Virus record (IMG/VR): IMGVR_UViG_3300020221_000119
Coordinates: 1 to 24,588 of that record
Source of the DNA: a virus
Length of the DNA stretch: 24,588 nucleotides
Direction: 5' to 3' (one strand)
Part shown: piece by piece, positions 2,134 to 8,920 of the stretch
How positions within the stretch are numbered: the first letter of the stretch is position 1
How the letters are laid out: each line of letters starts with the position of its first letter
Notes under the pieces: generated by a model
The model's database searches: none
Told to the model about the DNA's origin: nothing
Seen by the model: only the letters and a program-made list of their open reading frames with translations
Made by a program: the position numbers and the translations under genes

Positions 2134-3177
2134 CTAGTTACCACCTTTAAGCAAAAATCGATTGCTAATTGCCTTAAAGTGAATTTGAGGATTAGTCATG
2201 CACTTGAATACAAGACCTTCACGCTCGGCTTTCGGATTCAACACACTCTTACCCTCTGCAACCATTAGCAGAGTATCCACATCCATTTTGAAAACTACAG
2301 AGTCGGTAAGTACAGGTACATTCTTCAAACCGAATTGTTCACAGAACCGAATACGCTCTTCGCTGCTCAGATAATTGCCAATTGCAACATCATAAACATC
2401 AAACACAAAGAAGTCAACATCTTTCAATTGATATGGATTACCTTGAACAGGTCCAACCAATTCACCTTGAATGGCGAAACCTTTGCGTACAGCAGTCTTT
2501 AGTTTTGTCTCAACATCATATTTTACAGCGGCGCGCCAGAAGCTATTGGTGTCGCTGGGCTTCAAGTCAAGATTCCGACTACACACATGGAATTCCCCTT
2601 CTTGATCCAAGAACATTGTGCAAGATGAACCATCCAGCTTCTCGGTTACTTCGAAACTCAAGTCTCCCCACTCAGCTAGTTCCTCAACGAGATTCTGACA
2701 ACGCTCTTGATCGGTCTTGGGGATTTGAGACGGAAATGCTCCACGAACTTCACCAGCTAGTTGGGCAGGAATTTCTGGTTCCCACTTTTGAATATTCAAA
2801 ATTTCGGTAACATTAGCATCAAAGACATCGTTGGTATCACTAAGTACCGTAAGAACATCTAGCTGAACTTCATCGATAGGTAGCAACAAACCCTGACTGA
2901 CTTGACCACGAAGTTTAATAGTGCGGACACGGTTACCCTTCACACCGTTGTACTCTTTCGGCTCAGAACCCTTAGAGAGAAACGGTGCAATTTCATGAGG
3001 AACCCATGAATCAATTGAGACATAAACAACATGATCACCAACTTTGTATTGGTTGATCTTATCAACAACCCACCAGCCGTTAACTCGATAAGCAACAATC
3101 TGATCGGCATTTTCAATAGGCTTAATCTCGCTAACTTTAGCAACCCAAGCCATCACTCGCTCATTATTAATAATCAT
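2134..3177 (-). CDS. RNA ligase with N-terminal OB-fold domain
   Basis: This is a covalent nucleotidyltransferase of the RNA ligase type, 347 residues from the ATG at 3177 (AAGGA, 6-base spacing). Residues about 1-110 form an OB-like domain with YRVNGWWVVD and GDHVVYVSID. The ligase domain carries motif I EKLDGSS with adenylated Lys180, motif Ia CSRNLDL (about 199-205), a GELVG motif (about 238-242), FFVFDVYD (motif III-type), EGLVFK (motif IV, about 320-325) and HFKAISNRFLLK (motif V). This order, with an OB domain ahead of the ligase domain, matches the Deinococcus Rnl (Rnl5-like) class more than T4 Rnl1. The expected role is sealing nicked RNA, for example repair of cleaved tRNA during infection (inference). 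Confidence 0.93.
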   Translation of the reverse strand: MIINNERVMAWVAKVSEIKPIENADQIVAYRVNGWWVVDKINQYKVGDHVVYVSIDSWVPHEIAPFLSKGSEPKEYNGVKGNRVRTIKLRGQVSQGLLLPIDEVQLDVLTVLSDTNDVFDANVTEILNIQKWEPEIPAQLAGEVRGAFPSQIPKTDQERCQNLVEELAEWGDLSFEVTEKLDGSSCTMFLDQEGEFHVCSRNLDLKPSDTNSFWRAAVKYDVETKLKTAVRKGFAIQGELVGPVQGNPYQLKDVDFFVFDVYDVAIGNYLSSEERIRFCEQFGLKNVPVLTDSVVFKMDVDTLLMVAEGKSVLNPKAEREGLVFKCMTNPQIHFKAISNRFLLKGGN

Positions 3178-5628: not shown

Positions 5629-5816
5629 AATATATTCTCGTTTTTTAGTTCTTTAAATTGCTTATACAATTCTAGATACTGCTTAAAAATTTTTGGATAA
5701 TGCTCTGAATAACAGTATAATATTTCACCATATCTAGATACCATATCAAGCATTATCTTTTCAGACTGCTCATCAGTCAGCCCGTTCAATGTCTGATTCA
5801 TTGCATTCTGATCCAT
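5625..5816 (-). CDS. Small hypothetical protein overlapping the cupin gene (63 aa)
   Basis: ATG at 5816 gives MDQNAMNQTLNGLTDEQ; a TTG at 5828 is an alternative start. The first 44 bases are also coding in another frame for the C-terminus of the upstream nucleotidyltransferase-cupin protein, an overlap much longer than usual here. The protein is helical, with a Tyr-rich RYGEILYCYSEHYPKIFKQY segment, and ends in an ATGA junction with the glycosyltransferase. Unrecognised; position suggests a partner of its neighbours. Confidence 0.75.
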   Translation of the reverse strand: MDQNAMNQTLNGLTDEQSEKIMLDMVSRYGEILYCYSEHYPKIFKQYLELYKQFKELKNENIL

Positions 5817-6525
5817 ATTGTATTTCAATAATCTTTAGTTCTGTATCAGTTGTGATATTATAAAGTTTATGCCAAGATGATTCCGGAATCAAAAATTCTG
5901 ATTTAGAATACAGCATATGTTTAACATCATTCAAGATAACTTGCCCATATCCAGATGATACAAACCAAAATTCTGATCGATTATTATGTCTTTGAAGACT
6001 CAGAGATTTACCGGGATATACAACAAGTTCCTTAACTTTTATGGATGCATCACCGCTATTCAACTCATGAATAACTTTATAATAACCCCATGATCGATCA
6101 ACTTTACTTGTTTTCCAGGACTCAAGAATCGAAGACGATGAATTTACTTTATTTTCACCACCAATCCCAAAAGCAAATTCAACATTGGGTACAATCATTT
6201 CAGGAATATTATTCCTTGTTCGATCACCACCATTTGCGAAAATAAGTTTACTCGTTGGAAATGCTTTGCAAACTTTATTAATTAAATCGATAGCTGTTCC
6301 ATCATCATCATTAAAACATAGAACTTGATCGACACATTTTAGATTTTTAACAATTTCTGCTCGTTCATTCCATGGCAAAAAAGCTTGCCCTTTTTTTCGG
6401 ATTAGCCAATCATCACTGTTCACACCAACGATTAAAATATCACCAAGCTGTTTGGCAGCATTTAAATAACCAATATGCCCACTATGAATAGGGTCAAATC
6501 CGCCACTGGCGATAACAACTTTCAT
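5773..6525 (-). CDS. Cytidylyltransferase-like / mannose-6-P-isomerase-type cupin fusion
   Basis: Residues 1-140 are a nucleotidyltransferase of the RfaE/HldE-C type: GGFDPIHSGHIGYLNAAKQ carries the HxGH motif, and NSSSSILE matches the ISST-type motif. Residues 148-245 are a type II mannose-6-phosphate isomerase cupin: WGYYKVIHEL, PGKSLSLQRHNNRSEFWFV with metal-ligand His and Glu, then IPESSWHKLYN and IIEIQYG. The usual 'EDDIxRxxDxYGR' ending stops after SDIERAD, about eight residues short, where the next gene already overlaps. It probably activates a sugar or polyol phosphate for the glycosyltransferase two genes downstream; the exact substrate cannot be read. Confidence 0.88.
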   Translation of the reverse strand: MKVVIASGGFDPIHSGHIGYLNAAKQLGDILIVGVNSDDWLIRKKGQAFLPWNERAEIVKNLKCVDQVLCFNDDDGTAIDLINKVCKAFPTSKLIFANGGDRTRNNIPEMIVPNVEFAFGIGGENKVNSSSSILESWKTSKVDRSWGYYKVIHELNSGDASIKVKELVVYPGKSLSLQRHNNRSEFWFVSSGYGQVILNDVKHMLYSKSEFLIPESSWHKLYNITTDTELKIIEIQYGSECNESDIERAD

Positions 6526-6974: not shown

Positions 6975-7808
6975 TTAAAATTCATCAATAACTTCAAGCA
7001 AATTTTTCAATCGCTTTGAAATCATATAATTCATAAATTTCTGCTTTGACGCAGGGTTTGTTGTTTCATAGATATTTATAATTTCAGTTTTTAGATTCTC
7101 TGGAATAAATGACAAGTCGATCAATTCTCTGTTTCGTTGCCAATTCCGTTCCAAATCTCCTGTTGCAAACACGGGATTGAATTCAGCAAGAAACTTTTTA
7201 GTCACAGGTTTTTGCCGAATACCATCAATGATAAAATTATCACCTGAGAGAATATTTGGAACACCATCATCTTTATCACCAGTAACAATCAGTTCTGCCA
7301 ATTGCTGTAGTGGATTATCAGATTTAATCCACTTTTTCATAGAAGGTGAATATTGTTTTACATTGTCATTATGAAGCTGAATAAAATCTTTATCAGACGA
7401 TAAAATCAAAACCTTTTCAGTTTTCGATAGACTTTTGGTTAGTGTTCCAATAATATCATCAGCTTCTGCCGTATCAATGTGAATTACTTTATATGGTGAA
7501 TGTTCTTTTAGTTCTTCACGAACATTACCCAGCGCATCAAAAATGGAACTCCAATCATGCCCACTTTTTTCTCGATTCTTTTTTCGGGAAGCCTTATATG
7601 GCGGAAAAACATCTCTACGCCAGTATTTACGCCCATCACATGCAATAACAATATTCTTTCCATAATCATCGCGAAACTTACGAATATTGGCTCGAATAGT
7701 ATTAAGAATCATGTGACGAACCAATGATTCATCTACAGCATCTTTTGAGGAACCAATTTGATCCATAAGATTCGCAAGTGCAACTTGATTGTAATCAATG
7801 ATAATAAT
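6975..7808 (-). CDS. rnh: T4-type RNase H (5'-3' flap nuclease), apparent ATT start
   Basis: The protein aligns along its length with T4 RNase H (from memory): VRHMILNTIRANIRKFR, the YWRRD motif, DTAEADDIIG, SSDKDFIQLH, KQYSPSMKKW and GDKDDGV. These include most active-site Asp residues of the FEN-1 family. The first metal-binding Asp lies in IIIIDYNQVALANL, upstream of the first in-frame ATG at 7766. The only in-frame codons before it are ATT/ATC after a TGA, and AAGGAG lies 7 bases before the ATT at 7808. I therefore annotate an ATT start. The alternative is a one-base insertion in the A-run after an out-of-frame ATG at 7815. Role: removal of RNA primers from lagging-strand fragments. Confidence 0.9.
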   Translation of the reverse strand: MIIIDYNQVALANLMDQIGSSKDAVDESLVRHMILNTIRANIRKFRDDYGKNIVIACDGRKYWRRDVFPPYKASRKKNREKSGHDWSSIFDALGNVREELKEHSPYKVIHIDTAEADDIIGTLTKSLSKTEKVLILSSDKDFIQLHNDNVKQYSPSMKKWIKSDNPLQQLAELIVTGDKDDGVPNILSGDNFIIDGIRQKPVTKKFLAEFNPVFATGDLERNWQRNRELIDLSFIPENLKTEIINIYETTNPASKQKFMNYMISKRLKNLLEVIDEF

Positions 7809-7822
7809 TTTTCATCTCCTTA

Positions 7823-8920
7823 TCAGCTTACTCGCAAAATGACAGTATCTGCATTCAGACGACCAGTCAACAAGCTTTCTTTGGTTTTTAGTTTACTCAT
7901 AATGTTGCGCAATGCAACTTTACCCGCGCTTAGAACTTCACCAACAGTTTCAGCAGGTTTCCTAGTGGTCTTACTCACAGACTTGATTTGATTCACACCA
8001 ATCAAAGTGGATCCCTTTATAGAGATACCAGTACCATCTTCTGCGAAATAAACACCAAGTTTCTTGGTTTTCGTATTATATACAAAAACCTGACTTGAAC
8101 CAACAATCTTTGAAGGATCAATTGAAACAATTTTAACGTCTTCAGAAAGAGAAAACTCTTTACAATATTTAACCTTACTAGACAATTGCTCAGGTGTTTT
8201 TTGTTTTGTTTTTCGAGGTTTCCTATTCAATTTAGATTGAGAAACAATTTTGGATGCATCAGACAATACTGCATCACAGAATGCAACCAATTTTTTCATT
8301 TGAATTTTAGAATAGATTCCATAAGCTTCTTGAATATACTCATCATCAGAATCTATAGCATTGGAAAATTCAGCGCGATATTTCTTAAAAACCTCGATAA
8401 TGCGAGGTGTATGAACTTGTTTGGTGTTCAAAGTCACCATCAAGCCCATAGCATCATAGGTAGACTTGCACCCACTCATAATGAAGTCATCCAGACTGCC
8501 TTCCAATTCAGCAGTAATTGCATTCGCTTGATCAGCAATTCGATCTTGAATGTTGGGTTTTTTCTTTTCAACACTCTCACCGATCTCACCAGAATCGCTT
8601 GGCGATGCGCTCAATTCTGAAATATGACTGTCAAACCACTTCTGATTCTTTTCGTCCAGTGACGCACCATTCGACAGAATGCGACACACAAAGCCAAATT
8701 GACGAGGAAGAGAATTAAGAGCACTTACAGAGAACTTAATCTTTTGTTTCGTCAAATAGTCTTTTGCATACTTGGCAGAATCCTTGGAATCCTTGTTATT
8801 GGAATACCAGCTTAATGTGCGACCAAGAGTAAGATTATCCAGAGTTTCACCCTTGAGTTTGGGTTCACCACCAACGATCTTATCAAGTTTATCTTGAGTT
8901 TGCTTAACAATAGTGTTCAT
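7823..8920 (-). CDS. Large conserved hypothetical protein (365 aa)
   Basis: ATG at 8920 follows AGGA with 6-base spacing, inside the end of the upstream gene. The N-terminal third is helical with LTLGRTLSWYSNN. The middle holds QDRIADQANAITAELEGSLDDF and a DEYIQEAYG helix. The C-terminal third is beta-rich: VKIVSIDPSKIVGSSQVFVY, KKLGVYFAEDG, GISIKGSTLIG, and it ends with NADTVILRVS. It resembles hypothetical proteins beside RNase H in some T4-superfamily phages, but I cannot name a family. No catalytic or membrane motif is seen. Its position suggests a role tied to replication (inference). Confidence 0.88.
   Translation of the reverse strand: MNTIVKQTQDKLDKIVGGEPKLKGETLDNLTLGRTLSWYSNNKDSKDSAKYAKDYLTKQKIKFSVSALNSLPRQFGFVCRILSNGASLDEKNQKWFDSHISELSASPSDSGEIGESVEKKKPNIQDRIADQANAITAELEGSLDDFIMSGCKSTYDAMGLMVTLNTKQVHTPRIIEVFKKYRAEFSNAIDSDDEYIQEAYGIYSKIQMKKLVAFCDAVLSDASKIVSQSKLNRKPRKTKQKTPEQLSSKVKYCKEFSLSEDVKIVSIDPSKIVGSSQVFVYNTKTKKLGVYFAEDGTGISIKGSTLIGVNQIKSVSKTTRKPAETVGEVLSAGKVALRNIMSKLKTKESLLTGRLNADTVILRVS

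Follow-up and report, generated by a model that had tools for sequence, protein, structure and literature searches.

Where does translation of the RNase H gene begin in this phage? The window, as we call the whole stretch of DNA that was analyzed, is a virus record of 24,588 bases (IMGVR_UViG_3300020221_000119), with the rnh gene on its minus strand. Its gene content places it among the T4-like phages: It codes for a T4-type RNase H, an RNA ligase, an ATP-dependent DNA ligase, and a ClpP-like protease. A preliminary description of the sequence had proposed that rnh starts at an ATT codon. To our knowledge, very few bacterial starts beyond AUG, GUG, and UUG have been documented, and fewer still in phages. 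The proposal of an ATT start is strongly supported by sequence comparison: The codon is aligned with the ATG of related genes, it lies at the usual distance from a Shine-Dalgarno sequence (SD), and the same combination of SD and ATT is found in dozens of divergent genes and in a sequenced isolate.

The RNase H gene and its start region

Read from ATT 7808, the gene (6975..7808, minus strand) has 277 codons and a stop codon, and codes for a T4-type RNase H (5'-3' exonuclease / flap endonuclease). By all its sequence features the product is an ordinary T4 RNase H as a protein. It matches Pfam PF02739 (5_3_exonuc_N, 3.2e-20) and PF09293 (T4 RNase H C-terminal, 6.6e-13), both above the curated cut-offs, and a PHROG 107 exonuclease match covers residues 1-277. 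A profile of its relatives matches T4 RNase H (1tfr/3h8j) with 1.2e-66. The window protein belongs to the same family as T4 RNase H (rnh, PDB 1tfr) and has the same site I aspartates: D5, D58, D117, and D139 align with T4 D19, D71, D132, and D155 (PMC3012046). The T4 protein differs in its longer N terminus, which has 14 residues more before the first Asp.

In T4, D19 is a site I metal ligand, and the D19N mutation eliminates nuclease activity (PMC3012046). The codon for the corresponding Asp5 in the window is GAT (7794..7796, minus strand), as placed by alignment to 1tfr and 3h8s; the sequence of the T4 structure 3h8s has Asn at this position. The N-terminal strand and the Asp are conserved among relatives, and Asp5 is present only when translation starts at or before ATT.

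The gene upstream of rnh (7823..8920, minus strand) belongs to PHROG 11903, of unknown function, and ends with TGA 7825-7823, 14 nt 5' of ATT. It is not frameshifted: The profile is matched from position 15 through the end. A homologue of this gene also precedes rnh in L001, L003-L007, L076, L092, and L096-L099, a synteny which suggests that PHROG 11903 is linked with RNase H.

After the TGA of the upstream gene, the minus strand reads TA-AGGAG, an out-of-frame ATG, AAAA, and then ATT. In the frame of RNase H there is a TGA (7814-7812), then AAA (7811-7809), then the putative start codon ATT (7806..7808), with which the N terminus begins: ATT ATT ATC ATT GAT TAC AAT CAA, or IIIIDYNQ. No ATG, GTG, or TTG is found from the in-frame TGA to the catalytic Asp, so the conserved N terminus is preceded by no usable canonical in-frame start. 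The first canonical one is ATG 7764..7766, 10 codons past the Asp codon. It has no SD and opens a 263-aa ORF which lacks Asp5, and it is the start that gene callers would be expected to choose. All this agrees with the preliminary description, which had noted a frame free of canonical starts before the first Asp, a TGA before the start (AAA lies between them), AAGGAG 7 bases from ATT, and the loss of the catalytic Asp if translation began at ATG 7766.

The SD, AAGGAG (7816..7821), lies 7 nt 5' of ATT and directly adjoins the out-of-frame ATG (7813..7815). The clear SDs of the window are found 5-8 nt from their starts, for example AAGGAG 7 nt before ATG 14286. Therefore, the SD serves the ATT position. 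The out-of-frame ATG is rejected as a start, with an SD spacing of 0 and a reading frame that stops after 6 codons (ATG AAA AAT TAT TAT CAT TGA). The AAGGAG hexamer is not enriched across the window (9 found, 10.4 expected), and we estimate the chance of finding it at a working distance from one given codon at about 1e-3. The RNA around this site shows no notable predicted structure (z -1.3 and -0.4).

Start codons in related phages

We gathered relatives by tblastn of the RNase H frame against IMG/VR and cultured phages, a comparison which the preliminary description had recommended. Their start is either the codon that aligns with ATT 7808, as in S-CAM3 (ATG ATT ATT ATT GAT), or the one preceding it (ATG GCN ...). 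Among 253 such relatives, with 170 distinct 5' ends, all but one have a canonical ATG, GTG, or TTG about 3-9 codons before the Asp. In most of them it occupies the position of ATT, where GTG and TTG also occur. The closest relatives of the window (58-66% identity) mostly have ATG. The sole exception among the 253, L095, comes from a metagenome-assembled genome; this contig has ATC at the site, with AGGAG 7 nt upstream.

The earlier description had held that relatives with MKIIIIDYNQ from an ATG would count against ATT. One relative, L076, comes close to this, as it reads MKKGIIIIDYNQ from its ATG (2989-3001), but its identity is 46% and its junction differs: ATG AAA AAA GGC ATA ATA ATT ATT GAT. 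In L076, and in L132 (MEAKIIIID), ATG lies four codons 5' of the homologous Ile. The Ile at the start site can thus be read as internal in these two genes, an arrangement which is a possible alternative path into or out of the ATT state.

The case of L095 prompted a scan of IMG/VR with a DNA pattern, GGAG N4-10 ATH and then the conserved N terminus. At least 119 stretches were found; tblastn identified RNase H in 62 of 80 loci among the matches listed. At least 95 loci lack a canonical start 3-9 codons before the Asp; they comprise 58 distinct 5' ends and, after dereplication at the protein level, 45 representatives. From the in-frame stop to the Asp, a canonical start is entirely absent in at least 71 of them, 41 of which are distinct. 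A few of the cases found by the pattern have ATG, GTG, or TTG 1-2 codons before the Asp, and another few have an in-frame GTG, ATG, or TTG 10-11 codons before it. The nearest kin of the window in the non-canonical set are L328 and L291 (62-63% identity) and L341 (58%), which share its ATT.

The 45 representatives have ATT in 41 cases, ATC in two, and ATA in two. Ile codons elsewhere in the same genes are ATT (51%), ATC (27%), and ATA (22%), so that ATT is in clear excess at the start site (binomial p = 1e-8); the next Ile codon is also more mixed than that at the start site (Fisher p = 4e-4). The search did not create this excess, because the scan treated ATT, ATC, and ATA alike. It did select for GGAG: Most ATT cases come from the GGAG + ATH pattern, which biases their SD content from the outset, and it is with this bias that the GGAG 6-10 nt upstream in 44 of the 45 should be read. 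Its spacing is 7 nt in 27 representatives, 8 nt in 8, 6 nt in 5, and 9-10 nt in 4. The same junction is repeated in independent contigs of several clades, at least eight with GGAGAAAACAAA-ATT and at least eight with GGAGGCTACA-ATT, and near-identical ATT copies recur in several metagenomes. Most other ATT loci lack the out-of-frame ATG behind the SD, while they keep the SD, about 7 nt, and ATT.

Elsewhere on the same contigs, ORFs other than rnh show no enrichment of SD + ATT (21 seen, 18 expected), while rnh accounts for 52. Behind GGAG outside rnh, ATG and GTG are strongly enriched and ATT is at chance. At the available resolution, therefore, rnh alone shows the effect, and the idea that these phages commonly use ATT starts is rejected.

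A second conserved phage protein, of the NIFYLD(N/D)P type, seemingly has an ATC start, which is clear only in L296 (4356). At the homologous site L308 has ATT (5190), but an in-frame GTG lies upstream.

A scan for ATN which does not depend on the SD, limited to genes with the DY(N/S)Q(V/I)A motif, gave ATG in 117 of 118 cases and ATT in one. From these comparisons, ATT is an uncommon state (about 1% overall) which has recurred and which some lineages retain. A tree of 155 RNase H proteins requires 27 changes to account for the non-canonical state, and starred branches force at least 14 of them. Non-canonical starts are clustered on this tree: None of 500 shuffles gave a value as low. Some well-supported groups have nothing but ATT across long protein distances, and others are mixed ATT/ATG. 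The near-cognate codon is thus kept in relatives, both as the majority ATT of the representatives and in these uniform clades, while the nearest relatives of the window on the tree mostly have ATG.

Most of the closest relatives of the window (L100, L101, L103, L104, L105, and L423) have no SD but a Sigma70-like -10 sequence, TATAAT, with 5-10 nt between its end and the ATG. Their rnh transcripts are probably leaderless. TATAAT close to ATG is found in 15 of 136 ATG representatives, with 2.6 expected by shuffling. Leaderless mRNAs require AUG (PMC4611024). An SD which overlaps or is near a stop triplet is found in 25 of the 45 ATT representatives, a set selected for its SD, versus 15 of the 136 with ATG. 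These data suggest that ATT starts may be open to genes which lie behind an upstream gene and have an SD.

Translation from AUU and its alternatives

The strong, well-spaced SD behind the stop codon of the preceding gene would recruit initiation to AUU 7808. The initiator tRNA would place fMet at this codon, so the protein would begin MIIIDYNQ and retain its catalytic Asp. This is very probably how the RNase H of the window starts. The initiator tRNA reads near-cognate start codons whose third base is not G, but IF3 discriminates against them (PMC4611024; PMC5472188). Because of this discrimination RNase H would be scarce, its level depending on how strong the SD is and on IF3. Coupling to the upstream gene may also be involved, as may selection for a low dosage of a nuclease which is dispensable in T4.

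Several known systems are similar in part. Escherichia coli infC, which codes for IF3, has an AUU start which is read by the initiator tRNA and discriminated against by IF3 (PMC5472188, PMC4611024), as we propose for rnh. The preliminary description had compared both genes: The comparison holds for the codon and probably for IF3 discrimination, but not for autoregulation, the use that infC makes of AUU, because RNase H has no role in initiation. In T4, Nivinskas et al. reportedly described in 1992 an internal AUU start in gene 26 (26*). This is also AUU initiation in a T4 gene, but it gives an internal second product of a baseplate gene, while AUU would be the sole start of a replication enzyme in rnh. 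In E. coli pcnB, which codes for poly(A) polymerase I, AUU holds a nucleic-acid enzyme at a low level, according to Binns and Masters 2002 as cited in PMC9764084; pcnB is a cellular gene with a poor ribosome-binding site, unlike the viral rnh with its strong SD. Staphylococcus aureus cvfC1 (AUU) and ccpN (AUA) combine, as rnh does, a near-cognate start with a strong, properly spaced SD (PMC13009471). In these Gram-positive cellular genes, ribosome profiling and reporters have demonstrated the start. When S. aureus is in poor medium, AUU and AUA with an extended SD reach about 10% of the expression obtained with AUG (PMC13009471).

A wider reading, tentative but almost as likely as not, is that T4-like phages have repeatedly swapped the AUG of rnh for AUU behind a strong SD. 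This change, in a dozen lineages or more, would have been selected because it keeps the dosage of a replication nuclease low or makes it responsive to IF3. Several of the nearest relatives of the window would represent the opposite solution, leaderless and dependent on AUG.

The main rival to this reading concerns the purpose of ATT, not the start itself. ATT might be a tolerated weak mutation which drifts through near-cognate states and has no regulatory purpose. It is the main rival because T4 without rnh is viable, host Pol I substituting for the enzyme (PMC3012046). The many scattered changes on the tree and the presence of GTG and TTG at the site would also fit drift. We nevertheless consider it somewhat unlikely. 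There is a strong preference for ATT, even though ATA would arise from ATG by G-to-A, usually the commonest of the mutations that lead to ATT, ATC, or ATA, and some well-supported clades have remained wholly ATT.

The other alternatives deny the ATT start. An error in base calling or assembly, with ATG as the true codon at 7808, is improbable. A single substitution would suffice, relatives have ATG at the aligned codon, and a second contig of the window's population was not found in IMG/VR with exact and degenerate patterns. However, SD and ATT are found together in dozens of distinct relatives, as well as in several metagenomes as near-identical copies and in the isolate BUCT-ZZ01, and random errors would neither favor ATT 41:2:2 nor cluster on the tree. 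Judging from these loci, sequencing error no longer explains the pattern as a whole.

An extra A in the A5 run, as an error, or +1 frameshifting at that point, which the preliminary description had offered as alternatives, would give MKIIIIDYNQ from ATG 7815. Such a protein is very improbable. ATG 7815 is only one base out of frame, and L076 does have an ATG a few codons before the homologous Ile, but AAGGAG would abut this ATG, at odds with the spacing of other SDs in the window, and other ATT lineages do not share the ATG. A start at ATG 7766, the first canonical one in frame, is hardly credible: It lacks an SD, it would discard a conserved strand and an Asp whose replacement inactivates T4 RNase H, and an SD-like 4-mer precedes the first downstream canonical start in none of the 41 distinct comparable loci among the matches listed.

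Isolates and gene annotation

The non-canonical set includes two sequenced isolates, Synechococcus phage BUCT-ZZ01 and Caulobacter phage Cr30. BUCT-ZZ01 (ON615601; L381 401-430) reads AAGGAGaatcaaa ATT ATA CTC TTA GAC, with AAGGAG, 7 nt, and ATT. Its GenBank CDS, labelled as a hypothetical protein, starts 9 codons past the homologous N terminus and omits the catalytic Asp. Cr30 (KF301602; L385 401-454) reads taaGGAtcgttagtc ATA ATT CTC TTG GAC, with taaGGA and ATA at the site. Its GenBank CDS starts 17 codons past the homologous N terminus and also omits the Asp. The TTG directly before the Asp is a conceivable start in Cr30, but GGA is 18 nt away from it.

Gene callers limited to ATG, GTG, and TTG cut these RNases H past the catalytic Asp: This is a systematic annotation fault. 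In the truncated records, nucleases which are probably active look dead. Two other annotations may be mentioned here. The RNase H of S-CAM3 (KU686198; L084 1501-1591) is annotated 30 codons short, despite an ATG at the conserved site. Sinorhizobium phage phiM12 (KF381361; L387 401-412) has TTG at the homologous start site, and its annotated start is an ATG three codons later.

We found no prior report of an AUU start in a phage RNase H in the literature searched, whose coverage was partial. AUU starts themselves are known, as in infC and pcnB; what appears to be new is that they recur within a single family of viral genes, and that this affects how the genes are annotated. A near-cognate start which has arisen repeatedly offers a natural series on how SD strength, spacing, and IF3 set output.

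Elsewhere in the window, the region 5773-6525 codes for a cytidylyltransferase-like domain fused to a cupin domain of the mannose-6-phosphate isomerase type, a combination which looks unusual for a phage.
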